DNA of 34,806 nucleotides from assembly GCF_000828085.3 (NCBI RefSeq), contig NZ_JXCA02000011.1, positions 34,539 through 69,344 of the forward strand, written 5' to 3'. Below the pieces are notes generated by a model, which worked only from the letters and a program-made list of their open reading frames with translations, was not told where the DNA came from and made no database searches. Shown piece by piece: positions 6,086-29,459 of this stretch (positions are counted from its first letter, which is position 1; each line of letters starts with the position of its first letter). The DNA is from Scytonema tolypothrichoides VB-61278 (GTDB taxonomy: Bacteria; Cyanobacteriota; Cyanobacteriia; Cyanobacteriales; Nostocaceae). The position numbers were made by a program, and so were the translations under genes.

Positions 6086-7030
6086 TTACAGCAGTTTTTC
6101 CATCCTCTGCAGCAGTTCCTCGAATTCCTCTTGCTTACGCGCATCGTCCCATGTTTTGACTTTCTTCGCTTTGGCATAGAGCGCTTTCAATCGCGCCGGG
6201 TAGGCAAGGCTTTTGTCGGTTTTCTCTCCCTGCCCTTTCGCTTGTGCCGCTTTGTATGCGGCGATTTTTTCCTTGATCTGACTTAACGATAAATTCTTCT
6301 CGATCGCTTCTTTCAGGAGCGCTTTACGCGGCTTTGCCTCTTTGAGCGTCGCAATGGCGCGTGCCTTGGTGTATTCTAAGCGTCCTTCTCTCAACGCTTC
6401 TAAAATTTCTTCCGGCACATTTAATAAAGGCAACCGCGCCGTTCGGAAGCTTTCGGTGCTGATGTTGCTTGTTGCAGCAAGAATAGATTCAATTTTATTA
6501 AATTGACTGAAAACGTTTTCAGTCAACTCTAAGCTACGTTTTTTAGCATTGAGAGCTTGATCAATGATGGAAACCACGTCTTTTCGCGGGAGCGCTAACT
6601 CCAGACTCAACAATTCCAGAAGACCTTCGGTTTCCTCGACGGGATTGAGGTCTTCCCGTTGCAGGTTCTCAACCAGGGCGAGTTGATAGGCTTTCCTGTC
6701 ATCCAGATCGCGGATGACGACGGGAACTTCGTCAAGCCCCGCCTCTTTGGCGGCACGATAACGCCTTTCCCCCGCAATCAGTTCGTAGCGCTCGTTCTCA
6801 AGGGGACGCACCAGTAAGGGTTCGAGAATGCCATGCACCTTGATAGAATGCGTCAGCTGCGCCAGCTTTTGCGGATCAAAATAGCGGCGTGGTTGCGATT
6901 TGGGTAAGACAATCTTCGTTAAGGGCAAAGCCGTAATGCTATCGGCACTATCGACCCCCTGCCCTGCCAAAACGTCCAGCACATCGGGAACACCAAACTT
7001 GAAAACATCGGGTTTTTTATTTGCTGCCAT
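6086..7030 (-). CDS. parB: Partition protein ParB
   Basis: A 314-aa ParB/Spo0J-type centromere-binding protein and CTPase. The N-terminal ParB/sulfiredoxin-like domain is clear: the segment after residue 40 reads ITALPLTKIVLPKSQPRR, followed by the signature GERRYRAAKEAG, the conserved phosphate-binding arginine box, and then LALVENLQREDLNPVEE. A helix-turn-helix region follows, with a lysine-rich C-terminal dimerisation tail. Several starts are possible. The ATG at 7030 (MAANKKP) overlaps the end of parA by 14 bases, and another ATG lies three codons upstream at 7039. Overlap with parA implies one co-translated operon. It should load on a parS site and be moved by ParA to segregate the replicon. 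The most likely cis sites are upstream of parA, in the origin region. Confidence 0.92.
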   Translation of the reverse strand: MAANKKPDVFKFGVPDVLDVLAGQGVDSADSITALPLTKIVLPKSQPRRYFDPQKLAQLTHSIKVHGILEPLLVRPLENERYELIAGERRYRAAKEAGLDEVPVVIRDLDDRKAYQLALVENLQREDLNPVEETEGLLELLSLELALPRKDVVSIIDQALNAKKRSLELTENVFSQFNKIESILAATSNISTESFRTARLPLLNVPEEILEALREGRLEYTKARAIATLKEAKPRKALLKEAIEKNLSLSQIKEKIAAYKAAQAKGQGEKTDKSLAYPARLKALYAKAKKVKTWDDARKQEEFEELLQRMEKLL

Positions 7031-7784
7031 GTGCATCATCCAATGTTTTCGCGATTTCCTGAAGTATCGACACGGCGTGGTGCTTCGGGTTGTATAAAGC
7101 TAAAGGTAGTTGCTTTTGGGAAGCGTTAGCAAAATCGGTTGTTCTCGGAATGGTTGGGAACACTTTACCGACTTTCGACAGCTGCTCGTAAATGGCTTTC
7201 AAACTGTTCTCTCCCTGCGAAGTCCGTCCATCGTACATTGTGGGAATGAATCCCGCAATTTTCAATTTCTTGTTTGCTATTTTCAGGGTTTTAACAATCG
7301 TCGTCAATAAAAGCTCCGTTCCTTTGAGTGCTTTAAACTCGGTTTGAATAGGAACCAAAACATGGGTTGCCGCGACCAGGCTCATAATACTGAGGATGCC
7401 CAAGCTTGGCGGGCAATCGATGAGGATGTAATCGTAATCATCCGTAATGCTTTCCAGCGCTTGTTTGAGCCGCAGTTCTCCCATCATTGCCCCTACCAAC
7501 TCCATTTCGGCGGTACTGAGGCTGATATTGGAAGGTACCAGATCCATACCGGAGACATTGCGGATGATCGCAATGTCTTCTTCTCTGACAACGGCATCGT
7601 AAAGAGTTTTTTTCAATTCTATCGGTTCCAACCCCATGAATACGGTCAACGAGCCTTGTGGATCATCATCCACGAGCAACACTTTCCGCCCTAGCTGGCT
7701 CAAGTGGTACCCGATATTCTGCGTGAGGGTTGTTTTTCCTACGCCGCCGGATTGGTTGAATATCGCGTATATCGAAGCTGCCAC
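7017..7784 (-). CDS. parA: Partition ATPase ParA
   Basis: A 255-aa ParA-type Walker ATPase. The deviant Walker A motif is SGGVGKTT at residues 12-19, with second-strand motif VLLVDDDPQG and Walker B YDYILIDCPPSLG. The start is uncertain. The frame extends upstream to a TTG at 7961 with no ATG in between. I chose the GTG at 7784 because it puts the P-loop in its usual place directly after the first strand and gives a length typical of short ParA proteins lacking an N-terminal helix-turn-helix. The FNQSGGVGKTTLTQN context is common in cyanobacterial plasmid ParA proteins, although the initiator next door looks proteobacterial. ParA would form a nucleoid-bound gradient that moves ParB-parS complexes. 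It is transcribed with parB away from the origin. Confidence 0.88.
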   Translation of the reverse strand: MAASIYAIFNQSGGVGKTTLTQNIGYHLSQLGRKVLLVDDDPQGSLTVFMGLEPIELKKTLYDAVVREEDIAIIRNVSGMDLVPSNISLSTAEMELVGAMMGELRLKQALESITDDYDYILIDCPPSLGILSIMSLVAATHVLVPIQTEFKALKGTELLLTTIVKTLKIANKKLKIAGFIPTMYDGRTSQGENSLKAIYEQLSKVGKVFPTIPRTTDFANASQKQLPLALYNPKHHAVSILQEIAKTLDDAHGSK

Positions 7785-7896
7785 AATTTCTGTGCCTTGA
7801 ATGAGTAATCGTACCTTCAGAGTAGTATCATCTCGCCATCTTTGTACAATCGCTATTAGGATACCCTTCTCATCGATTGCTACAGGTAGCTGTCCA

Positions 7897-7951
7897 CCCC
7901 TACGAAGGGCATTTTCAAGAGGCAACCGCCCTTGTTCAGCGGTAGTAGGGG
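7897..7951. repeat. Nested inverted repeat upstream of parA
   Basis: Two nested inverted repeats occur here: an outer pair CCCCTAC (7897-7903) and GTAGGGG (7945-7951), and an inner pair AAGGGC (7905-7910) and GCCCTT (7928-7933). It lies about 110-170 bases upstream of the chosen parA start. It may be a parS or ParA operator; that function is inference from position. Confidence 0.45.
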
Positions 7952-8005
7952 TTACTGCCAATAGTAGCGAAAAACATCGCCGCTTTGCCGATAAAATTGG
8001 GCGCT

Positions 8006-8669: not shown

Positions 8670-9704
8670 ATGGAAGATGATAAGCCATTGAAATTACGCG
8701 ATGAAACAGATTTTTTCGTCTGCGATGTTTTCGATGCCGTACCGAAAGATGACATCGCAAGCATGGAACATCCGATTTTCTCCTTGTCAGCAAAACCCGA
8801 CAAAGAGGTACGATGCTACCAACTCAATGGCTACAACATCAAGATTACCCCAAGCGGCATCGGTCTGGCGACGATCCATGACAAGGATATTCTCATTTAC
8901 TGCATGAGCCAGATTGTCGCCAAAATGAATAAAGGCGAGAAGTTAAGTAAAACTGTCAGGATTAAAGCACGCGATTTGTTGATTTCTACCAATCGAGGGA
9001 CAGGTGGAAGAGACTATAAACTGTTGAAGGACTCTTTCGAGCGGCTCAGGGGTACGTCAATAACGACGGATATTGAAACGAATAACAAGAGAATAGTGGA
9101 AGGGTTTGGGTTAATCGATAAGTGGAAGATTATCACCGAAGATTTGAAAACGGATAAAATGGTTGAGCTTGAAATAACCTTATCGGATTGGATGTATAAC
9201 TCTATTTTAGGCAAAGAGTTTTTGACAATATCCAAGAATTATTTTGAGTTAAGGAGTGCTTTAGATAGAAGGATTTATGAGCTTGCAAGAAAATACTGTG
9301 GCAAGCAAAACGAATGGCGAATAGACATAAATAATCTCAAGGAAAAGTGTGGATCTCAATCAAATATAAGGCATTTTAAATATTTGATTGGTAAAGTATG
9401 CGAAAGCCAACAAATACCTGATTATGAGATATTTCTGGATCAGAATATTGTTTTATTCAAGAATAAAAAAGAACAGCATCAATCATTAATTTCAAAAAAG
9501 CAAAATATACAGTTGAAAAGCAGCACGTATGAAAAAGCGCGTAGTGCTGCTCCTGGGTATGATGTATATGCCTTAGAACAGGAATGGTTGCAATGGTGGA
9601 AAGATAGCGGTGAACCGGAACTACGATCCTCCGATGCGGCTTTCATCGGCTTTTGCCGTCAGAAATACCAAAATAGTGTAAAGCCTTATGGTTTACTGTT
9701 ATAG
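8670..9704 (+). CDS. repA: Replication initiator protein, RPA (RepA) family
   Basis: A 344-aa plasmid initiator. The segment at residues about 44-80 (LNGYNIKITPSGIGLATIHD, then KDILIYCMSQIV) and the following KTVRIKARDLLISTNRGTGG and LLKDSFERLRGTSITT match the conserved core of the Replication initiator protein A family (Pfam RPA, PF10134), which is typical of proteobacterial plasmids. A C-terminal extension (residues about 290-344) ends in EWLQWWKDSGEPE and FIGFCRQKYQ, a tail also seen in this family. It directly follows its iteron array, which it should bind to recruit DnaB and DnaA and, at high copy, repress itself. The ATG at 8670 has only a weak purine-rich stretch (GTGGAAA) ahead of it. 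Base composition drops in the middle of the gene (9.0-9.5 kb) compared with its ends. Confidence 0.9.
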   Translation: MEDDKPLKLRDETDFFVCDVFDAVPKDDIASMEHPIFSLSAKPDKEVRCYQLNGYNIKITPSGIGLATIHDKDILIYCMSQIVAKMNKGEKLSKTVRIKARDLLISTNRGTGGRDYKLLKDSFERLRGTSITTDIETNNKRIVEGFGLIDKWKIITEDLKTDKMVELEITLSDWMYNSILGKEFLTISKNYFELRSALDRRIYELARKYCGKQNEWRIDINNLKEKCGSQSNIRHFKYLIGKVCESQQIPDYEIFLDQNIVLFKNKKEQHQSLISKKQNIQLKSSTYEKARSAAPGYDVYALEQEWLQWWKDSGEPELRSSDAAFIGFCRQKYQNSVKPYGLLL

Positions 9705-11508: not shown

Positions 11509-12063
11509 ATGGCAGACATTCTTGGTTATGCACGTGTCTCCACTCAGGAGCAGGACTTGGAAGGGCAGCGGCTGCGCCTTAAGCAAGTCGGCGCGATCAA
11601 AATCTTTGAGGATGTCATCAGCGGCAAGAGCTTTCAGCGGTCGGGTTTAGAGTCGATGATCAACTATGCCCGGAAGGACGATATCATCTGTGTTGTCCGC
11701 CTTGACCGCCTGGGGCGCAGTCTAAAACAACTTCTGGAAACCGTGGAACGCTTCAAGCAGCAGGGAATTGGGCTGATGTCACTGGAGGAGAAAATTGACA
11801 CCTCATCCGCCGCCGGCGAGCTGGTGTTTCATGTCTTTGGTGCGATCGCCCATTTTGAACGCAGACTTATTGTCGAACGTACCAAGGACGGCATTGCGGC
11901 GGCACGCAGTAAAGGTAGGCATCCAGGACGTCCTAAATTAAGCGCTGAGACCTTAAATGCGGCATTTGTACTCATTGATAATGGGATGTCGCCTACTAAT
12001 GCAGCGAAGCAGTTAGGGATTGGTCGCAGCAATCTTTATGACGCGCTCAAAAACCGCAGTTAA
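11509..12063 (+). CDS. Serine resolvase 1 (small serine recombinase)
   Basis: A 184-aa resolvase/invertase. The catalytic N-terminal domain reads GYARVSTQEQ with R9 and nucleophile S11, and LDRLGRS supplies D66, R67 and R70, the active-site set of Tn3/gamma-delta resolvases. The E-helix region (FGAIAHFERRLIVERTKDG) and a linker GRHPGRPKLS lead to a C-terminal helix-turn-helix (SPTNAAKQLGIGRSNLYDAL). Length is normal for a complete enzyme. The inverted-repeat cluster directly upstream is its likely res site. It probably resolves plasmid dimers, since it sits in a stability region with parAB and vapBC, or it is left over from a transposon; no transposase gene is present. Confidence 0.93.
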   Translation: MADILGYARVSTQEQDLEGQRLRLKQVGAIKIFEDVISGKSFQRSGLESMINYARKDDIICVVRLDRLGRSLKQLLETVERFKQQGIGLMSLEEKIDTSSAAGELVFHVFGAIAHFERRLIVERTKDGIAAARSKGRHPGRPKLSAETLNAAFVLIDNGMSPTNAAKQLGIGRSNLYDALKNRS

Positions 12064-12129: not shown

Positions 12130-12825
12130 GTGTATAATCAGGACGCACATAATTACCCAAGAGCCAAAGATTTGAAACCGCCACTTACAATAGAATTATT
12201 ACTACAGGAGGCTGCGCTATTTTCCGAGGTGGAAAGTAAATACGACGAACCTGTTTTATATGGTGTAACGGACGGTAAGGCTGTGGGCACTTATCTTGAA
12301 CATAAATTCAAGGCATATCTAGCTGGTAATTATCAATATGAAACTGGCAACTCTGCTTCTGGGATAGATTTTCTAAACCTTGAAATCGACATGAAAGTGA
12401 CAAGCATTAAGCAGCCGCAATCTTCATGCCCTTTCAAATCTGCACGCCAGAAAATTTATGGGCTTGGCTATAATTTGTTGATATTCGTTTACGATAAGTT
12501 TGATGATATTAAAAATCAAACAGGCAGGCTTAATATGCTGCATACGATTTTTGTGCATAAAGAACGTACTGCAGATTATCAAACGACAAAGGGTATTCTT
12601 GATATACTCAAGAGAGACGGTAACTTAGACGATTTACTCGCTTTCATTGAGGATAAAAACCTCCCAGTTGACGAAATTGAAGCAAGAAATATTGCGGAAG
12701 CTATCCTTAAAACACCACCGCTACAAGGCTATCTGACCATCTCAAATGCACTGCAATGGCGGCTTCAATATAGCCGTGTTATTCAGAAAGCCGGTGAAAT
12801 AGATGGACTCTACAAGGTACGTTGA
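12130..12825 (+). CDS. Type II restriction endonuclease (PD-(D/E)xK-like)
   Basis: A 231-aa protein directly followed by a DNA adenine methyltransferase, the classic order of a Type II restriction-modification pair. A probable PD-(D/E)xK nuclease core is visible: E57 (GTYLEHKFKAYL) on the first helix, then D80 (SASGID) and D87-x-K89 (LEIDMKVTS), with hydrophobic strands between and the following strand NLLIFVYDK. It starts with GTG at 12130; no in-frame ATG is available upstream. Its stop is one base before the methyltransferase ATG. The base composition is clearly A/T-richer than the DNA to the left, a sign of transfer with its partner. I do not recognise the specificity. The assignment rests mainly on the pairing and the active-site pattern. 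Confidence 0.72.
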   Translation: MYNQDAHNYPRAKDLKPPLTIELLLQEAALFSEVESKYDEPVLYGVTDGKAVGTYLEHKFKAYLAGNYQYETGNSASGIDFLNLEIDMKVTSIKQPQSSCPFKSARQKIYGLGYNLLIFVYDKFDDIKNQTGRLNMLHTIFVHKERTADYQTTKGILDILKRDGNLDDLLAFIEDKNLPVDEIEARNIAEAILKTPPLQGYLTISNALQWRLQYSRVIQKAGEIDGLYKVR

Positions 12826-12826
12826 G

Positions 12827-14362
12827 ATGTCAGAAACTATAAATACTAGTAAGAAAAAGATTTTTGGGGACTTTCAGACACCAAAGAATTTGGCTGTTGA
12901 GGTTATGAATTGCCTTAAGCAATCGCTAAATATACAGCCTGCTGCCATTATCGAGCCGACCTGTGGGAAAGGCGCTTTTCTGCTGGCTGCAATAGATGGG
13001 TTCCCTGATGCATCTAGCTACATGGGTGTTGAAATTAACACAGACTATTTTCGTGAACTAAATGGGTCACTAAAAAATTTTGATAGGCTTCGTGATATTC
13101 AGACGTTTAATTTCGATTTCTTTGCAGTAGATTGGCACAAGCAAATTTCATTGCTTCCCGAACCTATTTTAATTACAGGAAATCCACCGTGGGTTACAAA
13201 TTCGAGCCTCGGTGTGCTTGAAGCAAACAATCTGCCTATGAAAAATAACTTTCAGGCAAGAAATGGATTGGAAGCGATAACCGGCAAGGCCAATTTTGAT
13301 ATTTCCGAGTGGATGATACTGCAATATCTTGAGTGGTTAAAAAGTAAAAAGGGTACTATTGCTGTTCTCTGCAAAACCGCAGTGGCACGAAAAATCCTTT
13401 TCCAAGTATGGAAGCAAAATAAGCCGATAGAGTATGCGGCCATTCATATGATTAATGCACTTTCTCACTTTGGAGCTTCAGTGGATGCGTGCCTTTTTGT
13501 AGTGCAAGTCGGTACGGAAAGTAACTACCATTGTTTTGTTTTCAATGGATTAACTCATTGCAAAGCATATGAGCAAATAGGTTACAAGGATGACATGATT
13601 TTGTCGGATATTGATGCCTATTCTAAATTCTCTGATCTCAAAGGTAAGGACAGTTTTTATACATGGCGGTCTGGGATTAAGCATGATTGCAGTAAAGTCA
13701 TGGAGCTATCTTGGGATAAAGGTTCACTCACGAATGGTCTAGGACAGTCAGTAAATATCGAAGATACCTATACCTACCCACTGCTAAAAAGTTCTGACCT
13801 TGGTAATGGTCGAGTGAAAAAATGCCGTAAAAAAGTTATTGTTACGCAAACTTATATTGGAGAGAATACTGCTTTAATTCAAAATTTAGCTCCTCAAACA
13901 TGGGATTATTTGGAAATACACCGAGAAACTTTAGCGGCGCGAAAAAGCTCTATTTATAAAAAGCGACCTCCTTTCTCGATTTTTGGCGTAGGTGACTACA
14001 GCTTTGCACCGTGGAAAGTTGCTATTTCAGGACTTTATAAACAACTCAAGTTTTTTTCGGTTGGCCCGATAGACGGAAAACCTGTCATGTTCGATGATAC
14101 AGTTTATTTTCTTCCCTGTCGGTCGCAAGGTGAAGCTGAATTTATTTGTGCGCTGCTAAATTCGCAAGAAGCACGTACTTTTTTGGAGTCGATGATATTT
14201 TGGAATGACAAGCGCCCCATTACAATTGATCTTTTAAAGCGTCTTTCGATAGTAAAGCTTGCTAAGCTTCTCAAGAAAGATGAAGAGTATATGCATTATA
14301 CTTCTCCTTGTGATACTAGAGAAAGCCATAATTTACTTGAGTTAGATTTGGTATTTGCTTAA
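12827..14362 (+). CDS. N6-adenine DNA methyltransferase of a Type II restriction-modification system
   Basis: A 511-aa adenine methyltransferase. From the ATG at 12827 (MSETINTSKK) the motifs run in gamma-class order: motif X near residues 11-19 (KIFGDFQTP), motif I at 43-49 (EPTCGKG) binding S-adenosylmethionine, then catalytic motif IV NPPW at 119-122. A long C-terminal half (from about residue 250) probably holds the target recognition domain, including ARKSSIYKKRPPFSIFG and FSVGPIDGKPVMFDDTVYFL, a layout typical of Eco57I/TaqI-like enzymes. An ATG eight codons upstream, inside the endonuclease gene, is possible but less likely. It would protect host DNA from the 12130 endonuclease. Target sequence not deducible. 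Confidence 0.88.
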   Translation: MSETINTSKKKIFGDFQTPKNLAVEVMNCLKQSLNIQPAAIIEPTCGKGAFLLAAIDGFPDASSYMGVEINTDYFRELNGSLKNFDRLRDIQTFNFDFFAVDWHKQISLLPEPILITGNPPWVTNSSLGVLEANNLPMKNNFQARNGLEAITGKANFDISEWMILQYLEWLKSKKGTIAVLCKTAVARKILFQVWKQNKPIEYAAIHMINALSHFGASVDACLFVVQVGTESNYHCFVFNGLTHCKAYEQIGYKDDMILSDIDAYSKFSDLKGKDSFYTWRSGIKHDCSKVMELSWDKGSLTNGLGQSVNIEDTYTYPLLKSSDLGNGRVKKCRKKVIVTQTYIGENTALIQNLAPQTWDYLEIHRETLAARKSSIYKKRPPFSIFGVGDYSFAPWKVAISGLYKQLKFFSVGPIDGKPVMFDDTVYFLPCRSQGEAEFICALLNSQEARTFLESMIFWNDKRPITIDLLKRLSIVKLAKLLKKDEEYMHYTSPCDTRESHNLLELDLVFA

Positions 14363-14573: not shown

Positions 14574-17500
14574 ATGTCCACTATCGCAACATTTATCGGA
14601 ATTGATCGATACGCCGCACTCGATGTGCGGGATTTATCCGGTGCGCGGCGCGATGCCTTGGGGTTGTGGTGTTTGTTTAGCGACTCCGTTTCTGACATTA
14701 AGCCTAGAATGGTTTGTAATGAAGAGGCTACCACTGTCACCGTGCGTGAGGCTATACGCACCACATTGAAAGAAGCCACCGCAGAAGATACAGTAATCTT
14801 CTCATTTTCCGGTCATGGCACTCCTGACCACCGATTAGTTTTGCACGATACGCACCGTGAAGCGTTGCATGAAACGACTATTCCGATGGCGGAAATCGCG
14901 GATGCGTTCCGCACCAGTAAAGCAGGAACTATTATCTGCATTATTGATTGTTGCTTCAGTGGCGGTGCACCAGCACGCGTTCTTGATGATGCACCTATTC
15001 CGCGTGATTTAGGCGACCCGTATGCAGAAATTGTCGGCTCTGGCAGGGTTTTGATTGCTGCATCGGCTGCGACTCAAGTTGCTTATGAGCACCCTACTGC
15101 ACGTTATGGTCTTCTGACGAAAGCAATCATTGAAGTTTTAAGCGACGCTGGAGAACCGCTCGGTATTGGCGAAGTGCTTGACCGAATCATGGATAGGGTG
15201 CGGGCCGACGCGGGCAAAATAGGCGTAACGCAAACCCCGTATCTGGTGAATAAAGTGGAAGGTGGCATGAGGCTGCCGGTCTTTCGTAAGGGAAAGACCT
15301 ATCGTAAAGCGTTCCCGGAAACCGGCGGGATTATGGTTGGCAGTGCGATTGGAGATTTGACAGTTTTTGGTATTCCTTTGGACGTATTAAACAGGTGGTC
15401 AGCGCGTTATTCGTCAGGGCTTAATCAACTACAGCAGCAAGCTATTAACGAAGGGCGAATTTTGGATGGGGCATCTTTGTTTGTAGTTGCTCCAACCAGC
15501 TCTGGCAAGACGTTCATCGGTGAACTGGCTACCGTGCGGGCAGTCGCCGAACATCGCAAAGCGGTATTTCTTGTTCCTTACAAAGCGCTCGTGAACGAGA
15601 AATTTGATCAATTTCAGGGCCTATACGGTGATCATCTTGATTATCGGGTGATACGCTGTACTGGCGACTATGGTGATCAGGTGGCAGCGTTCATGCAAGG
15701 CAAATATGAACTGGCTATATTGACTTATGAAATGTTCCTGAACATTGCTCTCGATAAACCGGCGTTGCTGCACAACTTGGGCTTGGTGGTGCTTGATGAG
15801 GCGCATTTCATCACCGATCCCTCACGAGGCATCACAGTCGAATTGCTGTTAACCTATCTTCTTTCTGTCAGGGAGCGCGGTATAGCACCGCAACTCATCA
15901 CGCTTTCCGCCGTTATTGGGGGAGTCAATGACTTCGATGCTTGGCTGGATTGCAAGGTGTTGATGAGTGATCAGCGTCCTGTGCCTCTTGTCGAAGGTGT
16001 CATCGATCGCACCGGAGCTTTTCAGTATGTTGATGCTGAGGGGCAACCACGCATGGAACAGTTTATACCCAAATGCTCTATCGTACAGCGGAGAGATAAA
16101 CCTAGCAGTCAGGATGTCATTGTACCGTTAGTCAATAAACTGGTGAATGCTGGCGAAAAAGTGATTGTTTTCCGCAACCAGCGTGGGAAGGCACAAGGAT
16201 GCGCGGCTTATCTGGCAAATGATCTTGATCTTCCTCCCGCAACAGAAATCCTCTCATTACTGCCGACGCGTGATAGCACTACGGCATCCGCAAAGCTGCG
16301 CGAATGCCTAAATGGTGGAACAGCTTTTCACACTTCAAATCTGACGCGCGAAGAACGGGAAATTGTTGAACGCGCTTATCGAGAGCCTGACAGCCTCGTT
16401 AAGGTTCTCGGCGCGACGACAACTGTAGCCGCCGGTATTAATACGCCAGCTGATACTGTTATTATTGCTGAACAGGAGTTTAAGGGCGATAACGGCAGAC
16501 CCTTTACCATTGCCGAATATAAGAATATGGCAGGACGGGCGGGCAGGCTTGGTATAAGCGAACGCGGGCGTTCTATCATTTACGCAGAAACGCCTTTACA
16601 GAGACAACAGCTTTTTGACCGATACGTGCAAGGAACACTCGAACCGTTACGATCTTCGTTTTCTGTGCAGGATATTGAAACCTGGATCATTAAACTGCTG
16701 GCACAGGTGCAGTCCGTTTCAGCAGGAGAGGTCATACATCTTTTATCCAAGAGCTACGGCGGCTATCTTGAGAACCGTAAAAATCCTAAGTGGCAGCATG
16801 AAATGACAGCCACCCTAGAAAAAATACAGCAACAAATGCTTGAACTAGGTTTAATCGAAGAAGAACTCGGTCAAATTCGGCTTACATTGCTGGGTCGGGC
16901 ATGCGGTACATCATCGTTAAGCTTCGCATCCGCGATGAGGCTGGTGAAACTGGTCAAGGAAATAGGAGTGCATACGCTTACGCCCAAAATTTTGATCGCT
17001 CTCATTCAGGCGTTGCCGGAAATGGATCAGGGTTATACTCCATTTTTTGTCAGAAGCCCCGGCAAAGAAGCGGCTTGGCGTGAAAAAGTAAGAGAGATGT
17101 ATGGTATTGAAACTGTACAGGCATTGCAAAGATTCGCTCCCGATAATGCTGGGTATGTAAAGCGGTGCAAGCGTGTCTGCATGCTTTATAACTGGATCAG
17201 CGGAGTTTCGGTGGAAGAAATCGAGCGTCTCTTTACGACAAATCCTTATGCGGCTCCGTTTTATTATGGCGATGTCCGTAATATTGCTGACTCAACGCGT
17301 TTTCACCTACGTTCGATACGGCAGATTGTTGCACTGCTATTGGTAAGTACCCTGGCATTTGAGGAAGAAATTGATAATTTACTGTTACAGCTTGAGATAG
17401 GTATTCCCGCTGATACCCTTGACTTGTTAAAGTTGCCTATTTCTTTGTCGCGGGGCGACTATCTTGCTCTTCGCAAGGCTGATGTAATGACATGTAATCA

Positions 17501-17591
17501 GCTATGGCAAAAAACGGATGTGGAGTTAAATTCTCTTTTGGATAGTGTTACTGTTGCACGGTTAAGAGCCTACCGCGAAACTATACTGTAA
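14574..17591 (+). CDS. Caspase-like protease fused to Ski2-like DEAH helicase
   Basis: A 1005-aa fusion. Residues 1-235 are a caspase/metacaspase-like C14 domain: strand IATFIGIDRYA at the start, catalytic His81 in FSFSGHG, catalytic Cys127 in IIDCCFSGG, and the later strand GRVLIAASAATQVAYE. Residues about 265-700 are a superfamily 2 helicase: a Q-like LNQLQQQA (residues 283-290), motif I APTSSGKT (306-313), motif II DEAH (408-411), motif III LSA near 445, TTTVAAGIN near 615-623 and motif VI MAGRAGRLG (652-660). That set and spacing mark the Ski2/Hel308 group. The C-terminal 300 residues fit a winged-helix, ratchet and helix-hairpin-helix tail. It starts at the ATG at 14574 after GAGAAG. The 211 bases before it hold no supported gene. 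It follows a restriction-modification pair and precedes a res/resolvase. A helicase sensor coupled to a protease effector in phage defence is inferred. Protease substrate unknown. Confidence 0.88.
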   Translation: MSTIATFIGIDRYAALDVRDLSGARRDALGLWCLFSDSVSDIKPRMVCNEEATTVTVREAIRTTLKEATAEDTVIFSFSGHGTPDHRLVLHDTHREALHETTIPMAEIADAFRTSKAGTIICIIDCCFSGGAPARVLDDAPIPRDLGDPYAEIVGSGRVLIAASAATQVAYEHPTARYGLLTKAIIEVLSDAGEPLGIGEVLDRIMDRVRADAGKIGVTQTPYLVNKVEGGMRLPVFRKGKTYRKAFPETGGIMVGSAIGDLTVFGIPLDVLNRWSARYSSGLNQLQQQAINEGRILDGASLFVVAPTSSGKTFIGELATVRAVAEHRKAVFLVPYKALVNEKFDQFQGLYGDHLDYRVIRCTGDYGDQVAAFMQGKYELAILTYEMFLNIALDKPALLHNLGLVVLDEAHFITDPSRGITVELLLTYLLSVRERGIAPQLITLSAVIGGVNDFDAWLDCKVLMSDQRPVPLVEGVIDRTGAFQYVDAEGQPRMEQFIPKCSIVQRRDKPSSQDVIVPLVNKLVNAGEKVIVFRNQRGKAQGCAAYLANDLDLPPATEILSLLPTRDSTTASAKLRECLNGGTAFHTSNLTREEREIVERAYREPDSLVKVLGATTTVAAGINTPADTVIIAEQEFKGDNGRPFTIAEYKNMAGRAGRLGISERGRSIIYAETPLQRQQLFDRYVQGTLEPLRSSFSVQDIETWIIKLLAQVQSVSAGEVIHLLSKSYGGYLENRKNPKWQHEMTATLEKIQQQMLELGLIEEELGQIRLTLLGRACGTSSLSFASAMRLVKLVKEIGVHTLTPKILIALIQALPEMDQGYTPFFVRSPGKEAAWREKVREMYGIETVQALQRFAPDNAGYVKRCKRVCMLYNWISGVSVEEIERLFTTNPYAAPFYYGDVRNIADSTRFHLRSIRQIVALLLVSTLAFEEEIDNLLLQLEIGIPADTLDLLKLPISLSRGDYLALRKADVMTCNQLWQKTDVELNSLLDSVTVARLRAYRETIL

Positions 17592-18006: not shown

Positions 18007-18558
18007 ATGATCGGACAACGTATCGGGTATATTCGGGTGAGTAGCCTCGACCAAAATCCCGAACGACAACTGGAGGGCATCGCCACTGATCGGCTATTTA
18101 TTGATAAGGCGTCGGGCAAGGATACGAGTCGTCCCAAACTCGAAGAGATGCTGCGTTTTGTGCGTGAAGGGGACGTAGTGCTTGTCCACAGCATGGACAG
18201 GTTGGCACGTAATCTGGATGATTTGCGACGCATCGTCCAAAATCTCACCGGGCGGGGCGTTCGGGTGGAGTTTGTCAAGGAGGGATTGCATTTTACGGGA
18301 GAAGATTCCCCGATGGCGAATCTCCTATTATCAGTGATGGGGGCCTTTGCCGAATTTGAGCGGGCGCTGATTAAGGAAAGGCAGCGCGAGGGTATTGCCC
18401 TTGCCAAAGGGCGCGGTGCATACAAAGGGCGCAAAAAGTCTCTCACACAGACACAGATTGTAGACATCCGGGCAAGGGCAGCAAGGGGGGAAAGTAAAAC
18501 TCAGTTGGCGCGAGAATTCAGCATCAGCCGGGAGACACTTTATCAATATCTGCGTTAG
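18007..18558 (+). CDS. tnpR: Serine resolvase 2 (Tn3-family TnpR-like)
   Basis: A 183-aa resolvase. GYIRVSSLDQNPERQLEG carries R10 and nucleophile S12; SMDRLARNLDDL carries D64, R65 and R68; FAEFERALIKERQREGI is the long E helix; the linker YKGRKKSLT leads to a helix-turn-helix (GESKTQLAREFSISRETLYQYLR). It is full length and very like the TnpR/TniR resolvases of mercury-type Tn3 and Tn5053 elements. A three-subsite res region lies directly upstream. No transposase or terminal repeat was found, so it is either a resolution module adopted by the replicon or the remains of a transposon. It bounds the defence island on the right and differs in sequence from resolvase 1. Confidence 0.95.
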   Translation: MIGQRIGYIRVSSLDQNPERQLEGIATDRLFIDKASGKDTSRPKLEEMLRFVREGDVVLVHSMDRLARNLDDLRRIVQNLTGRGVRVEFVKEGLHFTGEDSPMANLLLSVMGAFAEFERALIKERQREGIALAKGRGAYKGRKKSLTQTQIVDIRARAARGESKTQLAREFSISRETLYQYLR

Positions 18559-19014: not shown

Positions 19015-19398
19015 TTAGACAAATTTGATAGATCCGACAAGAAAATTGCTGTCTTTGTTTTTTGACAGCAGAACATCTAGTGTGTTTTCTGGTGAAATGA
19101 TTTCCTTTTCAAGGGAATAGATAAGATTGACCGTAGCTTTGTTGTCTTTTGTCAATTCATCCTCAACATTTTGACTGCTTCTGTGGCGATTTATAGCGAT
19201 AACCTGCTGGATAGTCTTTCCTTTTGCATAAAAAGTTGAAACTTCGCATACAAGTACAATCTCCTCATTCAACTCAAATACTGAAGTTATTTTTCCTTCC
19301 AGCTTGTTATCACCTATAGATGACACAAAATCCCAGGGTTCTCCTATTGACGCGAAGATCCTACGCCCAACAAATGGATGATCAGTATGGTTGTACAT
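19015..19398 (-). CDS. Probable immunity protein for the RHS toxin
   Basis: A 127-aa soluble protein I do not recognise by family. The ATG at 19398 (MYNHTDHPFVGRR) overlaps the end of the RHS toxin gene by 17 bases, the usual arrangement of a polymorphic-toxin immunity gene directly behind its toxin. It looks like a small mixed alpha/beta protein (IVLVCEVSTFYAKGKTIQQV), with no signal peptide. Its A/T-rich composition matches the toxin tip of the neighbouring gene and differs from the G/C-rich RHS core, which is typical of exchangeable toxin-immunity cassettes. It should bind and neutralise the C-terminal toxin domain in the cytoplasm. The role is inferred from position; no immunity family was identified. 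Confidence 0.6.
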   Translation of the reverse strand: MYNHTDHPFVGRRIFASIGEPWDFVSSIGDNKLEGKITSVFELNEEIVLVCEVSTFYAKGKTIQQVIAINRHRSSQNVEDELTKDNKATVNLIYSLEKEIISPENTLDVLLSKNKDSNFLVGSIKFV

Positions 19399-22300
19399 TA
19401 ATAATTTCAACCTTAACTGGGTCCGTCGTCATATACTCGCGTCCACCCCCTCTACCTCCAAATGCCGGAGCAACCCTCGCACCAGCGATTGTAAAAGACG
19501 GTTCATTTCTAATCTGAAATTCCATCTGTACTTCAGGCTGCTGTGGTAAAGATAACCGATCTTGTACCTTAGTAGCACTACGAAAACGTGAATCCGTAAA
19601 GAAAGTTTCTCCTTCTCGACCACCACGCAAAAAGCCAGTTTCTTTTACTGCTTCTGCTTCCGCTTTGGTCATACTCCTGTAGAAAGTCTTAGCATTAATA
19701 TCAACGACTTCTGAAACGACAGCTTTATTCCGAGCAATTTTTCCTACTCTGTCCCTGATCAAAGTAGCGATCAACGCCCCTTCACCAGTAGGACCACCTG
19801 CTGCAAAATCAATACCTGCTCCTACACCCAAAGCTACAATATCTGGATTACGTGCTATCCAGTCTGCGGTAATATCCCATGCCTCATCGGCCTTGCCGAC
19901 GACGTAGTCCGCAGCCATGCCACTGGGATCGGTGGCGTTCAGGGGGTCGTTATTCACATAGGCATACAGATTCAGCCCTTCAGCAATCGGGTCGGTTTGC
20001 AGGAACCGCCCGATGCGCGGGTTGTAGGCACGGGCTTTGTAGTGGTACAACCCGGTTTCCGCGTCGTAGCGCTGTCCGGTATAACCAAAGCTGGTTCCTG
20101 TAAGCGATGCCGATTCCCCGAACGGCCCATAAGCATAGCGCCCGTTGACGATGCGGCTGGCATCCACCAGCGCGATGACGGAACCTAAGGAATCATGGTG
20201 GGTGTATTGTATACCGCTCAACGTGCCGCCACTGAAGCTGCGCACCGCGACCAGTTCGTCGTTACCGGTACCCCAGACGAATTGCTTCTGAAGGGTCGTG
20301 CCGTTGCCGGCGTACTCCGCAATTTCCCGGCCTCCGGCATAAAGATAGATGGTCTTCACGCCGTTCACTGTCTTGGAATACCGTCGTCCCAGCGGGTCGT
20401 AGGTGAATGCCGCCACCGTCGGCGACGCTTCCGCTCGCACCAGGCGGTTTTCCGTGTCGTAGGTGTACGTCCATACCCCGTTGCCGGTCAGGTTCCCCTG
20501 CTGGTCATAGGTATACGGCGCACCCACGTTCTGGTACTGGTTGACGCTGTTCGCCGTGCCGTAGTTTGCTGTCGTGGTGGAACCCGCCGTGCCGCCGGGA
20601 TGCCAGGAATAGGCATCTACGCTGACCACCAGGCTGTTCCGGCGGTGCGTCTTGTCGTAGCCGTAGTTGAAGGTCAGCGATTCGGTAGGGGATAAGCCGT
20701 GTGACAGAACGTCCAGATCGCCGTCGTCTTCCCAAGCGTAGTTCGCCACCCCGCCATTGCCGTAGTTCATCAGCACACGACGCAACAGCGGATCGTAGCT
20801 GTAGCCTGCCAGATACCCCGCCGTGCCGTTCTCTTTGATGATCACCACACTGTTCGTGGCATCGTGCCCATACAGCACGTCGAAACCGCCGGGATAGAGA
20901 ATCCGGGTGCGATTGGCTTTATCGGCGTAGTTATACGTGACGGTCTTGACACTGCCGTCGTTGCGGCTCTCCGAGAGCAACCGTCCGACGGCATCGTACA
21001 CGAACGTCCAATCGCCCACATAGGCATCCCCTGCGCCCAGCGTGCCCGTGAACGACGCGCGGGTGTGTCTGCCCGTCTTGTCGTAGGCATAGGTGGTGGA
21101 CGCCTGATCCTGCGGTGTCTTCACCGTCATCCGGTTGAGGTGGTCATAGGCATACAGAACGGTGTTCCCCGGCGTGCCCGTCACGCTGCGGATGCGCCGA
21201 CTCCCCATGTTGTCGGCCGCATCGTAGCTGAACCCGTCGTAGCTGCCGTCGGCGTACTGCGTTTGGCTGAGGCGGTCGAAGCCATCGTAGATGAAATTGG
21301 TCTGGTTGCCGCGCGCATCGGTGATCCGTCCGCGCGTGCCGTTGCCGTAATACAGGTAGGTCAGCGCCCGCGTGCTGCCATCGCTCGCGCCGAAGCCGTA
21401 AGTGACCGTGTTGACGCGCCCCACCACATCGTAGGTGGTGCGGACTTTCCGCCCTTCGGCGTCGGTGACGGTTTTCAGGCGGCCCAGTTCGTCGTAATCG
21501 TAAGTAGTGGTATTATTCGACGGGTTAGTGACGGTTCGTTTCTGGAAGGTGTCGGAGTACGTCATCACCGTCTCCAGGTATGTGGTGCCTGTTTTGAGGG
21601 CTTTGCTGCGTACCAGGTTGTCGTCCGCATCGTAGACAAACTGCGTATCCGGCGCTACCTGGCTTCCTGTGCCGTCGGGATCGGGCAGCGTCATCCGCGT
21701 CATTCGGCGCTGGGTGTCGTACACCATCGTGGTGGTATCATTCACGTCGGTGCGCGGCCCGTCGATACTGGTCTGGTTGCCTACCCCGTTATAGGTGAAC
21801 GTGGTCGTCAGGTTGAGCTTGCCGGTTCCTGCATCTTCCACCACCTGCGTCATGACTTCGGTCGTCGGGCTATAAGTGTTCTGCGTTACCGTATTCAGGG
21901 GATCGGTAACGGTCAGCACCTGCCCCCGGCTGTTGTAGGTAAAGCGGGTGACGGACGGGGTTTGCGGCCCGCCGCCGTCCGGGTCGGGGCTGGTGATGCT
22001 GAGCAGGTTGCCGTTCGCTGCGTCGTAGCTGAATGTTGTCACCCGTCCCAGGGCATCGGTGATCGTGGCGGGTTTTTGCCACGTGTTGTTATAGGTGGTG
22101 ACGGTTTCCGTCGGTAATAGCGCTGAAGGAACTGCCGCTGTGCAGTTGTAGATCGGGTTGGCTTCGCCGCTGATGGTCTTTTTCGACAAGCGGCGCGCCA
22201 GGGTAACGTTGTTGAACGCATTATACTCGAACGTACTGGCGTTGCATTCCGGCTTGATAAGACGGATCAACCGGTTCATGCCGTCGTATTCTTTTTTGGT

Positions 22301-25300
22301 TTCCTTGCCCGATTCGTCGATCTCACGAATGGCGCTGCCGTACGGATTGAAGTAGAGGATGTGCCGCCCGCCCAAGGGATTGACTTCCTCGGAACGCGCA
22401 CCAGCAAAATAGTAATTCCAGGGCTGCCCGTTGCCATCGGTTTGCGTCGCTACTCGTCCCAGGGAATCGTAGCTGTTGGTGACGAACGGCACGGTGGGGT
22501 TATTCGGGTCCGGCTGCCGTGACGGAAAGAAGATTTGCGTCATCCGTCCCGGCACGTCATAGGCGAACGTCGTCTTGTTGCCTAATGTGTCGGTAAAGCG
22601 CAGCAGATTGCCGTCTGCATCGTAGCTGTAGGTTACCGTTCGCCCGGCAACGCCGCTATTATCGGATACTTGATTGATATATCCTGTGCCGCTGTCATAG
22701 CCGATCGTCAACGAACGCCCGGTGGTGTTGGCCACCGACGTCAGCTTGCCACCCGTATACGTGAAATTTACCTCTGGCCCAGCCGGATGCACCCAATTGG
22801 CGATATCTCCGGTACTGTTGAAATTCAGCGCAATCTTGTCGGGGGTTTCGTACGTGAACGTGCCGTCCGTGTCGCGCGTCAGTGTCGTGGCGCTGTTCGG
22901 CGGTGGGTTGTACGCAACGGTGCCGTCGGGCAGTTCGCGCTTGACGAACATCTCCGACAGGTTTCCTTTGGTCACGGTGACGGTATTGTTCACCAGCTGC
23001 TCGGCAAGCCAGCGGTTGGAAAGCGCCACGATCACGCTGCGGTCGAGTTGCTGGGTTGGTGTGTAGAGCAGATCGAGGGCAATGAACTTTTCAATGATGC
23101 TGGCGGCTCCATCGATCGCCGAATCCTCACCCATCCCCTGGAAACCATCACTGCCCACATCGGTACGGATAGCGAAGTTGTGTGTCCAGCCTTTGCCCAA
23201 AGCGCCATTGAGGCGGCGCTTGCCGGAGTTGTAATGCTTCTGAAAACTTAAGGTGTAAGGAAAAGCTCCGTTGCCGATGACCAAATCATCGTGACTATAC
23301 GTATAATTGCCGGTGAATAAATCAATCGGCTCTTTTGACCACTCGGTGATCGCTTGAAACACATTCTGTGTATTCGACGCGAGTTGGTTGCGCTGTAATC
23401 GGGTTGATACTGTAGCATCCGATAAGGCAGTTGTAGAATACCCACCCGCCAGTCCGCCGCTGATAAAGGCCAGGATGGAACCGTCCGGTCTTTTGGTGAA
23501 AAAACCTGCTCCCCTCCAGTTCCCCGATGTAAGCTGTCCGTTTTCCGGGAGAAAAACGCGGGCGTTGAGCGTGTTGATTTCATTATCGATAATGCCCAAA
23601 GTACCTGCACTATAGCCTCCCCCGGCTACCGGCTGGGAAATAACCGGACGAACAACGGAAGCGTAATTGGACTGCGTAGCATCGTATATTTTGTAGCCTT
23701 GCAGCGATGCCAGATCGAGAAGACGGACTGTCGAGACGGCATCGGTGGATAAATTCTGCTCGATGACGGTGGATTCAAAGATACTGCTGTGGCTGAGAAA
23801 CTCATACCGAACGCTTTCCCTTCGCGTGGTATCGAGTGTCTGACTGACAACGGATACCATGCTTGATAAATCCACGTAGGGCGCATTCTGCGGAGCAGCG
23901 TTGCGTCCGGCAATGCCGACGATGTGATGGAAATTACTCGTCGTGCTGGCGATGCGGTCGGACAGATCCAGACTATAAACATTTTCCGCCAACCAAGTGT
24001 TGCCCAGCATCGCCAGGTTTTCGCCGAGGACAGGTTCCGTGCTATCTCCCAGACCGCTTTCCTTCGCCGCTGCCACCCGTTCGCGGTTGTATTCCATAAG
24101 CCCGCGCCCGGCAGGACCCCAGCCGTTGATAACCGTGTAGACGCCGCCGCCCCTGAGATTGTTGACGACGGTTTGATCCGCGCCCGTACAGATTGCCCCG
24201 GTGCAACTGTAGCCGTTATGGACAATCGTGACGGTAAGCTGACTGACAGCTCCAGGCATTACCGCTGTGCCAGGGCTTCCTACCGCTGCGCCATCCACCG
24301 ATAACAGGGGCTGATTGGAAGCGTTATAGGTAATGGTCAACCGTTTTCCGTAAAGATAATCCGAGGTGAAGGTCTGATCGATACCCTGGTACTGCACGCG
24401 CAGGGTCGGCTTGTAGGTATTGGGAATATCGGTCCATTCCACTTCCGGGTTGGCAGAATCCACGAAACGGTAGGGCAATACTGTTTGCCGCAGCGGTGCG
24501 CCAACATAAGGTTTGATGGTGCGACCACCCAGAATATCATCAACCGTCGCATCGGGATTATTGGTTTTGATATAGTTCACCAAGGTGTTGGTATAATTCC
24601 GGAGATTGCTGCGGATGCCTGCACGGTTCAGATTCTGCACATAGTCTGCCGTTACCGTCGCCCCGGTCAATGCACTGTTCGCATTGCCGCTCAGGAAAGA
24701 CGCCTGATCATAGCCCATCGCCGTAGCAACGTTGATGCCGCTCTTAACGATGTGGCTCTTGAAACTGGGGTCGAAAACGTAGTCCGTGCCCCCAATGTTG
24801 ACCTTGACCCACACATGGGTAATCTGAATGCGATTGAGGCTGCCGTCCGGATTGGAAAACGATTTATGGGGAATGCCGCCTTGCGAAAATACGGTTGCCG
24901 CCGCGATGCGACTGCTGGTGCTGATACCGAGCCAATCCTGGACTTGCGCTGCATTTAATTCGATTTGCCCCCGGACAAAATGTGCGGTGAAGCCTGCCTG
25001 CCGCAGCAGCGCCACCATCAACGCCGCCTGGTCGAAATCCGTCCCGGCATGATCGAGCAGTGTTCCCAGTGCTCCTTTTTGCACGCCAAAGATAGGATAG
25101 TAGGCGATGTTGTTATGGACGTATTCGTAAATCAGATCCGGATCGTTCTTCAGGGCACGCGCCAGTTCGGCGATGGACGCGGGCGAAGAGGGCGAAGCAG
25201 CGCTGCTTCGCATCAGGCGGCTGAGGAAACCGCCCCTTACTGTCGTTCCGCCATTGAGATTTTCCGGCAGTTTGCGGCTTTCGATGACGGGAATCGCTTC

Positions 25301-25426
25301 TTCCGGAGTCGCCGGGGGCATGTTCACCAGCTTCATGCCATTGTCACCACCCATCTGCGCCTGTGCCAGAACCGACTGTATGAGGAGGGCAAAAACAATG
25401 AAAATGGGTAAGAAACGGCGATTCAT
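19382..25426 (-). CDS. Secreted RHS/YD-repeat polymorphic toxin with transglutaminase-like N-terminal domain
   Basis: A 2014-aa protein. The start is the ATG at 25426 (MNRRFLPIF), preceded by a G-rich ribosome-binding site. Residues 1-23 form a Sec signal peptide ending LAQAQ. About 80-220 is a transglutaminase-like domain (DLIYEYVHNNIAYYP, then HVWVKV, then FDPSFK), but the usual nucleophilic Cys is replaced: the site reads GTDFDQAALMVALL. From about 690 come many YD repeats (YDADGNLLRFTD, YDELGRLKTVTD). The RHS core ends in YDAETGLYHYKARAYNP, then GRFLQTDP and NDPLNATDPSGM near 1837. The last 177 residues are the variable toxin, with FYRSMTKAEAEAV, then REGETFFTDSRFRSATKV and a late VKVEI. 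This order resembles small ADP-ribosyltransferase toxins of the Tre type, which is an inference. Expected role: contact-dependent or secreted killing of competitors. Confidence 0.9.
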   Translation of the reverse strand: MNRRFLPIFIVFALLIQSVLAQAQMGGDNGMKLVNMPPATPEEAIPVIESRKLPENLNGGTTVRGGFLSRLMRSSAASPSSPASIAELARALKNDPDLIYEYVHNNIAYYPIFGVQKGALGTLLDHAGTDFDQAALMVALLRQAGFTAHFVRGQIELNAAQVQDWLGISTSSRIAAATVFSQGGIPHKSFSNPDGSLNRIQITHVWVKVNIGGTDYVFDPSFKSHIVKSGINVATAMGYDQASFLSGNANSALTGATVTADYVQNLNRAGIRSNLRNYTNTLVNYIKTNNPDATVDDILGGRTIKPYVGAPLRQTVLPYRFVDSANPEVEWTDIPNTYKPTLRVQYQGIDQTFTSDYLYGKRLTITYNASNQPLLSVDGAAVGSPGTAVMPGAVSQLTVTIVHNGYSCTGAICTGADQTVVNNLRGGGVYTVINGWGPAGRGLMEYNRERVAAAKESGLGDSTEPVLGENLAMLGNTWLAENVYSLDLSDRIASTTSNFHHIVGIAGRNAAPQNAPYVDLSSMVSVVSQTLDTTRRESVRYEFLSHSSIFESTVIEQNLSTDAVSTVRLLDLASLQGYKIYDATQSNYASVVRPVISQPVAGGGYSAGTLGIIDNEINTLNARVFLPENGQLTSGNWRGAGFFTKRPDGSILAFISGGLAGGYSTTALSDATVSTRLQRNQLASNTQNVFQAITEWSKEPIDLFTGNYTYSHDDLVIGNGAFPYTLSFQKHYNSGKRRLNGALGKGWTHNFAIRTDVGSDGFQGMGEDSAIDGAASIIEKFIALDLLYTPTQQLDRSVIVALSNRWLAEQLVNNTVTVTKGNLSEMFVKRELPDGTVAYNPPPNSATTLTRDTDGTFTYETPDKIALNFNSTGDIANWVHPAGPEVNFTYTGGKLTSVANTTGRSLTIGYDSGTGYINQVSDNSGVAGRTVTYSYDADGNLLRFTDTLGNKTTFAYDVPGRMTQIFFPSRQPDPNNPTVPFVTNSYDSLGRVATQTDGNGQPWNYYFAGARSEEVNPLGGRHILYFNPYGSAIREIDESGKETKKEYDGMNRLIRLIKPECNASTFEYNAFNNVTLARRLSKKTISGEANPIYNCTAAVPSALLPTETVTTYNNTWQKPATITDALGRVTTFSYDAANGNLLSITSPDPDGGGPQTPSVTRFTYNSRGQVLTVTDPLNTVTQNTYSPTTEVMTQVVEDAGTGKLNLTTTFTYNGVGNQTSIDGPRTDVNDTTTMVYDTQRRMTRMTLPDPDGTGSQVAPDTQFVYDADDNLVRSKALKTGTTYLETVMTYSDTFQKRTVTNPSNNTTTYDYDELGRLKTVTDAEGRKVRTTYDVVGRVNTVTYGFGASDGSTRALTYLYYGNGTRGRITDARGNQTNFIYDGFDRLSQTQYADGSYDGFSYDAADNMGSRRIRSVTGTPGNTVLYAYDHLNRMTVKTPQDQASTTYAYDKTGRHTRASFTGTLGAGDAYVGDWTFVYDAVGRLLSESRNDGSVKTVTYNYADKANRTRILYPGGFDVLYGHDATNSVVIIKENGTAGYLAGYSYDPLLRRVLMNYGNGGVANYAWEDDGDLDVLSHGLSPTESLTFNYGYDKTHRRNSLVVSVDAYSWHPGGTAGSTTTANYGTANSVNQYQNVGAPYTYDQQGNLTGNGVWTYTYDTENRLVRAEASPTVAAFTYDPLGRRYSKTVNGVKTIYLYAGGREIAEYAGNGTTLQKQFVWGTGNDELVAVRSFSGGTLSGIQYTHHDSLGSVIALVDASRIVNGRYAYGPFGESASLTGTSFGYTGQRYDAETGLYHYKARAYNPRIGRFLQTDPIAEGLNLYAYVNNDPLNATDPSGMAADYVVGKADEAWDITADWIARNPDIVALGVGAGIDFAAGGPTGEGALIATLIRDRVGKIARNKAVVSEVVDINAKTFYRSMTKAEAEAVKETGFLRGGREGETFFTDSRFRSATKVQDRLSLPQQPEVQMEFQIRNEPSFTIAGARVAPAFGGRGGGREYMTTDPVKVEIINVQPY

Positions 25427-25533
25427 ACATCCCCCCCGCAGCAATACCTTTTGGGATAGCAGGGAGCCGTTAACAGCCCGTTAAAAGGTCTGGGATTAGG
25501 ATGATACTGACTGGGTTTGCGAAGGGTTGTCGT
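25427..25533. promoter_or_regulatory. Divergent control region between the RHS toxin and the mini-YD gene
   Basis: This 107-base gap separates the two divergent secreted YD-repeat genes. It contains the G-rich ribosome-binding site of the toxin (next to 25427-25440). No clear operator or strong promoter boxes were found. The tight head-to-head arrangement suggests shared control. Confidence 0.35.
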
Positions 25534-27072: not shown

Positions 27073-27395
27073 ATTGAAGGAGGGCAGGTTAACGTTAGAG
27101 CCATTAGTTATAATGTGGGGCGAAAAGTATTAATCTTCATGGTTGTAAGCGGCACCACCACCTTGGGTTTTTTAGCAACAATAGGTCAGAAGTTGGTTGG
27201 TACTTGAGTTCTATCTTGAACGGCGTGCATCATTACAAGGAAACCTTTATCTGGACGGCTTAAGATAAAAACCCCCTATTACCTTGAACAACAAAATTAA
27301 AATCCTTGCCGATCTAAAAGGGTGGGGCAGTAGTATCCTTATCAAAGCACTGAATGATTACCTTATTTAGCGTCGTCTAGATTGTTGTCTGCTGG
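27073..27395. other. Intergenic stretch without recognisable gene
   Basis: These 323 bases between two convergent genes hold only very short frames (one of 22 codons beginning at the ATG at 27139). I see no repeat, terminator or RNA gene that I can support. Confidence 0.5.
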
Positions 27396-29456: not shown

Positions 29457-29459
29457 AGT

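Follow-up and report, generated by a model that had tools for sequence, protein, structure and literature searches.

A caspase–Hel308-type helicase fusion sporadically distributed across bacterial phyla, a candidate single-gene immune sensor-effector

Here we describe a protein of 1005 amino acids (aa), predicted to combine an N-terminal caspase with a helicase, that is encoded in a 34,806-nucleotide stretch of the cyanobacterium Scytonema tolypothrichoides VB-61278 (contig NZ_JXCA02000011.1, positions 34,539 to 69,344; hereafter, the window, to whose own numbering the coordinates below refer unless another locus is named). The fusion gene occupies positions 14574–17591 of the plus strand, stop codon included, and consists of one frame that starts with ATG and contains no internal stop; the same domain order is found in 17 full-length family members, that of the window included. 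The fusion is real and conserved, and it is probably a form of helicase-gated protease immunity. The reading that we favor, with somewhat better than even confidence, is that of a mobile single-gene immune sensor-effector, in which the helicase senses abnormal DNA and activates the caspase. For the more specific proposition that a single protein serves as an immune receptor, its Hel308-type DNA helicase exerting direct control over the caspase, and that mobile elements spread it across phyla, we consider the case evenly balanced.

The caspase (Peptidase_C14) domain spans residues 1–225 (14574–15248; this and all other parts of the gene are on the plus strand), as judged from Pfam and NCBIfam matches and from a Foldseek search with the domain model. 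The Pfam profile Peptidase_C14 matches residues 4–225 (E 6.5e-14; 52.6 bits against a cut-off of 21.4), and the helicase profiles DEAD and Helicase_C match residues 285–448 (E 1.5e-22) and 562–660 (E 9e-8), respectively; given these scores, neither the caspase nor the helicase similarity is a chance resemblance. A motif script placed GHG at residue 80, with the predicted catalytic His81 (14814–14816), and DCCFSG at residue 125, where Asp125, Cys126 and the predicted catalytic Cys127 (14946–14954) are all invariant. The first RecA-like domain of the helicase (DEAD; 15426–15917) includes motif I, APTSSGKT, at residue 306 with Lys312, and motif II, DEAH, at residue 408; the second (Helicase_C; 16257–16553) ends with motif VI, MAGRAGRLG, at residue 652. 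Between the two halves lies a linker (residues 226–280; 15249–15413) with an AFP motif at 246–248 that is conserved in a 13-row alignment of the family (A1) and, likewise, in all 17 members, and the protein ends with a C-terminal part of the Hel308/PolQ type (residues 700–1005; 16671–17588), delineated by profile alignment of A1. Residues G80, H81, D125, C127, K312, D408, E409, R655 and R658 are identical in 17 of the 17 members, whereas the fourth residue of motif II is histidine in the window member alone and glutamine in the other 16. Thus, the open reading frame (ORF), the motif positions and the Pfam matches confirm the preliminary description of this DNA, in which a caspase-like dyad and a complete set of Ski2-like helicase motifs had been recognized in a single 1005-aa frame.

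Sequence comparison indicates that the helicase half is of the Hel308/PolQ type nearly from end to end. When the A1 profile (1017 positions) was searched against structures, archaeal Hel308 structures were matched with E values of 1e-80 to 2e-92 in alignments reaching profile positions 998–1007 (positions 267–998 for one Hel308 structure), and the helicase domain of human PolQ was matched at about 1e-64 over positions 264–1007, whereas the HamB structure was matched at 6e-29 over positions 298–670, that is, in the core alone. The NCBIfam models of the Hel308 type jointly cover residues 280–979. The likeness to Hel308, HELQ and PolQ therefore extends over nearly the full length of the profile, C-terminal part included; the fusion differs from Hel308 in scoring far below the NCBIfam equivalog cut-offs (277.5 bits against 887, and 212.8 against 1200), in its N-terminal caspase and in being bacterial. 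Hel308 is absent in bacteria, according to passages of the Hachiman paper (PMC12278908). In a Foldseek search with the full-length model, Hel308 and PolQ came first (E 2.4e-25) and HamB ranked 43rd, which lends weak support at a template modeling (TM) score of 0.33 and a root-mean-square deviation (rmsd) of 17.

The preliminary description had linked the helicase to HamB of the Hachiman system, a kinship that was not borne out. The HamB models are the top helicase matches in PADLOC, and a Hachiman variant with a caspase in place of HamA would account for this; the fusion receives 119 bits from the best of these models (3.3e-35), whereas HamB proteins from two other loci receive 1139 bits (L035, truncated) and 1387 bits (L012). 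In a tree of 18 helicases, a clade of nine fusion rows (99/99) stands apart from a clade of three HamB or HamB-like rows (97/97); long branches are frequent in this tree, and no claim is made for its deeper order. No HamA (DUF1837) was found in a PADLOC scan of nine further ORFs of the window, a set that leaves out its remaining small ORFs. Together with the bit scores and the core-only match to the HamB structure, the separate clade and the lack of HamA among the scanned ORFs led us to reject membership in Hachiman or among HamB proteins, and we regard the variant with a substituted effector as highly improbable. What the fusion would share with Hachiman is the coupling of an effector to a Ski2-like helicase that senses DNA, sensing being a proposal in the case of the fusion; it differs in being one chain rather than two or three, in having a caspase rather than a trypsin or a nuclease and in having a helicase other than HamB. 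In HamMAB, the HamA chain starts with a protease, as described in part of the respective report (PMC12799240).

Two further bacterial plasmid helicases, in loci L036 (3638–7018) and L038 (3899–6787), match Hel308-type models; in an NCBIfam scan, no caspase model was among their matches at 1e-10. In the Rhodococcus protein of these two, about 160 residues precede the helicase match.

By sequence, the N-terminal domain is a C14 caspase domain with a His-Cys dyad, and it is predicted to be proteolytic. The nearest curated model is NCBIfam caspase_w_EACC1, with 99.7 bits, below its cut-off of 140. The structure model of the domain is middling (mean predicted local distance difference test, pLDDT, 64.1; predicted TM score 0.69), and its first Foldseek match is the paracaspase MALT1 (E 4.1e-8; TM 0.53–0.60 and loose superposition across the MALT1 rows), with caspases and metacaspases lower. 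In MALT1 and metacaspases, which accept a basic P1 residue, the equivalent of Asp125 lines the S1 pocket; by analogy, the invariant Asp125, two residues before Cys127, is predicted to do the same and suggests cutting after arginine or lysine, so that basic P1 specificity is a concrete prediction from this position.

Two described groups of systems resemble the fusion in their caspase part. The Canu system also has a caspase-fold protease in an immune locus, and MALT1 is the best Foldseek match of the fusion domain, as it is for CanA in the portion of the Canu report considered. Among the window ORFs scanned with Pfam there was no match to an immunoglobulin (Ig)-like domain or a metallo-beta-lactamase (MBL)-fold nuclease, no model for CanC having been used; the fusion differs from Canu in lacking a Pfam Ig-like domain and a recurring nuclease gene among its neighbors. 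In EACC1 systems, too, a caspase of broadly similar type stands at the N terminus, followed by a different C-terminal domain. The fusion differs from them in that no EACC1 membrane gene lies directly upstream and that the C-terminal helicase is constant in all 17 members, in contrast to the many alternatives of EACC1 systems. Membership in the EACC1 two-gene system was rejected on the caspase score (99.7 against 140) and the absence of a 5′ one-helix EACC1 gene in the 211-base gap before the fusion gene.

The caspase model bears, in addition, on a reading with the roles reversed, which is the chief rival although we think it unlikely: regulation would fall to the caspase and the effector role to the helicase, an upstream signal triggering self-cleavage and the freed Hel308-type helicase unwinding or dismantling invader DNA. 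Self-cleavage that deploys C-terminal effectors has been proposed for EACC1 systems (Kaur et al. 2020, PMC7159879, in the sections relevant here), which provides a precedent, and the best-matching NCBIfam caspase model is precisely the EACC1-associated one. Possible self-cleavage sites are Arg144 (15003–15005), which is arginine in all 17 members, and residue 135, which is arginine or lysine in all 17; the loop that follows Cys127 contains both. However, the EACC1 cut-off is not reached, no EACC1-like gene is found 5′ of the fusion (the only plus-strand ORF of at least 20 aa in the 211-base gap has 39 aa), and the upstream genes vary between loci. Linker position 245, the sole linker position checked, carries no fixed basic residue, a point against both the reversed roles and the reading of a sensor that activates the caspase.

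Homologs with both domains in the same order, the lack of which would have marked the gene as a rare chance joining, were sought in several collections. A tblastn search of 72,556 plasmid records, with matches up to E 1e-5, returned 161 records with any match, and 12 of the 72,556 cover at least 80% of the fusion query at 35–51% identity; the first row below these 12 is a helicase-only match with 70% coverage and 25% identity (among the best 60 of 109 rows at E ≤ 1e-8). Beyond plasmids, the fusion was detected in two Chryseobacterium genomes, in one contig from a viral collection (L028) and in one further genome of the phylum of Chryseobacterium. Altogether, there are 16 full-length homologs besides the window protein, 12 from plasmids and four others, and 17 members were aligned. 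The two Chryseobacterium matches are a lower bound, as they come from a scan of genome contigs with short peptide patterns that detects close relatives only, and records near the genome of the window may be missing from several of the searches. Of the 12 plasmid members, 11 bear the annotation DEAD/DEAH box helicase and one superfamily II helicase, with no mention of the caspase half. Among 50,697 phage records, 19 partial matches were found, none at 80% coverage, and four further scans of viral contigs gave no confirmed fusion. In L028, the scanned neighbors (OmpA, an S1/P1 nuclease, a serine recombinase and HNH) do not prove a viral origin of the contig.

The fusion gene is accessory and sporadic across phyla. 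A full-length copy was found in one of seven genomes of its genus and one of 386 of its phylum, in both cases the genome of the window itself, and in two of 395 genomes of the Chryseobacterium phylum, including the genome on which that search was centered. This distribution bears on a further explanation, namely, that mobile elements use the helicase for repair or for restarting replication and that the caspase does no more than trim the chain itself or its partners, without any immune role. That the helicase half belongs to a DNA-repair family fits this possibility; the sporadic presence, the mixed defense neighbors (see below) and the strict retention of the caspase dyad do not, and we find it decidedly improbable.

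The number of plasmid-borne members also allows the view that the fusion serves the plasmid itself, as a device for addiction or competition by which cells are killed or arrested upon plasmid damage, plasmid loss, arrival of a rival plasmid or entry of a conjugating strand. In both the window and Manganitrophus, genes for RepA, ParA and ParB are located near the fusion. The plasmid count is, however, biased by the choice of a plasmid collection; fusions are carried, with phage-type integrases nearby, on Chryseobacterium contigs of 706,591 and 1,462,563 bases; and no antidote-like gene recurs in the 17 loci. Such a device appears improbable to us.

Separate trees were built for residues 1–235 and 280–965 from 14 of the 17 rows, the near-duplicates L016, L020 and L032 having been dropped. 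The caspase-half and helicase-half trees contain the same two groups, separated by a branch with 100/100 support, each of which mixes Bacteroidota and alphaproteobacteria. One group includes Fibrella, Hymenobacter, Agrobacterium, Bradyrhizobium, Manganitrophus and the Scytonema window member, whose place inside the group is unsupported in both trees; the other consists of Chryseobacterium, Bosea, Rhodopseudomonas, Rhizobium and L028. No supported split of one tree is opposed by a supported split of the other; the grouping of Bosea with Rhodopseudomonas is supported in the helicase tree and absent from the caspase tree, where Bosea is joined with Rhizobium (62/64). The simplest reading of these sequence trees is a single old fusion that spread by horizontal transfer. 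Both halves are also under purifying selection: the ratio of nonsynonymous to synonymous substitution rates (dN/dS) is 0.024–0.174 for the caspase part and 0.025–0.049 for the helicase core (five differing pairs each), and 0.06–0.159 for the C-terminal part (from four of these pairs, saturation affecting the remaining one). In the Chryseobacterium and the Bosea/Rhodopseudomonas pairs, dS is saturated and the ratios are rough; a sixth pair (Bradyrhizobium) is identical and uninformative. With active sites intact in 17 of 17 members, homologs of the same domain order and concordant half-trees, a chance fusion is ruled out.

An all-against-all comparison of ORFs of at least 80 aa from the 17 loci showed that the fused gene is the only ORF common to all of them. 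Clusters present in 8, 7, 6, 5 and 5 loci consist of ORFs that lie across the fused gene itself, and the next most recurrent are resolvases and three genes of a multiubiquitin operon, in four of the 17 loci each, the latter in two near-duplicate locus pairs. A multi-gene system with an obligatory partner was rejected on this ground, and the expectation that the fusion has no dedicated partner gene held across the loci, as no neighbor of any kind recurs throughout. Integrases or resolvases are close by in several loci. The neighborhoods include type I restriction (L008), Piwi (L009), ABC-three-component (L011) and a multiubiquitin-ThiF operon (L014, L020), as well as restriction with SAVED and HamB (L012), TIR with caspase genes (L017, L018) and Mokosh (L018).

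The presence of defense genes near the fusion, to which the preliminary description had drawn attention, extends to the plasmid members: a named defense gene is located within 8 kb in eight of ten non-duplicate plasmid loci, compared with one of ten control stretches (Fisher p 0.0055). The ten loci exclude the near-duplicates L016 and L020; the positive ones are L009, L010 (through its counterpart L020), L011, L012, L014, L015, L017 and L018, and with L010 scored from its own annotation, the count becomes 7/10 (Fisher p 0.020). The single positive control is L045, with MmeI. Toxin-antitoxin, Fic, DUF6088 and phospholipase-D-like genes were left uncounted in loci and controls alike. The controls comprised one stretch per plasmid, half-way round the same plasmids, and the keyword list was drawn up after the loci had been viewed; because of these features, the excess is support for an immune role rather than proof of it. 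The list also counts "caspase family protein" as defense, which is the sole ground for L015, and no named defense gene was seen in L019 or in L013, where the upstream side ends 3.7 kb away at the end of the record.

In addition to these features of the neighborhood comparison, several other points weigh against the reading of the fusion as a helicase-gated immune protease. At a mean pLDDT of 52.2, the model of the full-length protein is too poor to yield a contact between caspase and helicase. The caspase part alone gave no sequence match in PDB up to E 1, and its model superposes loosely on caspases (rmsd 5–11). An archaeal Hel308-like row and the fusion clade are not joined with support in the 18-helicase tree. 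No PADLOC model covering both domains is present among the best 25 of 33 matches, and searches of the open literature (subscription papers and outside preprints not being covered) brought up no functional study of a caspase-helicase fusion and no phage-challenge result. Many Ski2-family helicases act on RNA, and the ligand could be RNA instead of DNA.

If the fusion is indeed an immune sensor-effector, the helicase (residues ~260–1005) would survey DNA, probably of the 3′-tailed, gapped or forked kind that arises in the course of replication or repair of phages or plasmids. Binding to such DNA, driven by ATP, would alter the shape or the oligomeric state of the helicase, and the N-terminal caspase domains, brought together by this change, would become active. 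They would then cleave proteins of the host or the invader after basic residues, causing growth arrest or cell death before the invader multiplies. The DNA ligand, activation by proximity, the basic P1 preference and the abortive outcome are all inferred. Parts of this scheme have precedents: HamB of Hachiman senses damaged DNA and frees an effector, according to portions of PMC12278908, and in HamMAB, DNA sensing and oligomerization switch on a protease, according to portions of PMC12799240.

Caspase-helicase architectures had been listed before, and the "new" of the preliminary description needs to be qualified. A 2010 survey (PMC2853523) includes a metacaspase of Acaryochloris marina (gene 641257535) with DEXDc and HELICc, which, compared by its description alone, resembles the fusion in having caspase and helicase domains in one cyanobacterial chain; among 671 prokaryotic caspase homologs in a 2012 survey (PMC3501461), 12 were assigned a helicase activity. 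The parts of these two surveys considered here contain no study of function. Should the proposed mechanism be correct, DNA-structure sensing and caspase activation, elsewhere split among several proteins, would be united in one chain, and a single purified protein plus a DNA oligonucleotide would suffice for studying sensing, ATP consumption and proteolysis. A link between repair helicases (Hel308, HELQ, PolQ) and immunity, suggested for Hachiman in passages of PMC12278908, would be strengthened, and a bacterial caspase would gain a direct DNA trigger.

The window belongs to a 7.9 Mb genome in which photosystem II proteins are encoded, as expected of a cyanobacterium. In the window, the fusion gene follows a type II restriction endonuclease (12130–12825, plus strand; PADLOC REase_II, 4e-104) and a type II DNA methyltransferase (12803–14362, plus strand; PADLOC MTase_II, 9.5e-164; Pfam N6_Mtase), and precedes a resolvase (18007–18558, plus strand; Pfam Resolvase, 2e-37). 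PADLOC and Pfam thus bear out the restriction-modification pair upstream and the resolvase downstream that had been noted initially, and add a second resolvase upstream (11509–12063, plus strand; Pfam Resolvase, 1.6e-42). Pfam further identified ParB (6086–7039) and ParA (7017–7961) on the minus strand, RepA (8670–9704) on the plus strand, a type IV coupling protein and a RepB-primase-like gene. With genes for partition, replication and conjugation present, the segment that carries the fusion is plasmid-like by gene content; in DNA comparisons of parts of the window with the plasmid collection, 52 of 11,400 bases were matched in one search and none in another.

An inverted repeat (17587–17615/17668–17696) with 29-base arms that are 86% complementary overlaps the stop codon of the fusion gene; a terminator, a resolvase site and a remnant element are possibilities. 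In a scan for promoters and terminators, the counts were within two standard deviations of those in shuffled sequences.

Elsewhere in the window, the minus strand encodes an RHS-repeat protein of 2020 aa (19382–25444) that contains a transglutaminase-like domain and is perhaps a polymorphic toxin; several small ORFs overlap or flank its gene. A possible arsenic-handling cluster (25900–32668) consists of an MFS transporter, an FMN reductase, an SBF-family transporter and a phosphate-binding-like protein; the reductase resembles a gene annotated arsH in locus L014, and the MFS gene has about 84% DNA identity to three Nostoc plasmids.

Among the other loci, those of Bosea and Rhodopseudomonas (L017, 12177–18922; L018, 5167–7059) have in common two TIR genes together with caspase-family genes close to the fusion, so that two caspase-based systems may share one island. 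In the Manganitrophus locus (L012, 14744–18967), the full-length HamB of 1387 bits adjoins a gene annotated as containing a SAVED domain, and the annotation of the stretch considered includes no HamA. Directly 3′ of a Chryseobacterium fusion (L007, 11117–15068) are genes for a 263-aa protein, for which Pfam, NCBIfam and PADLOC gave no match at the cut-offs applied, and for a HamB-like helicase of 1052 aa (134 bits), a pair that is perhaps Hachiman-like with another effector.

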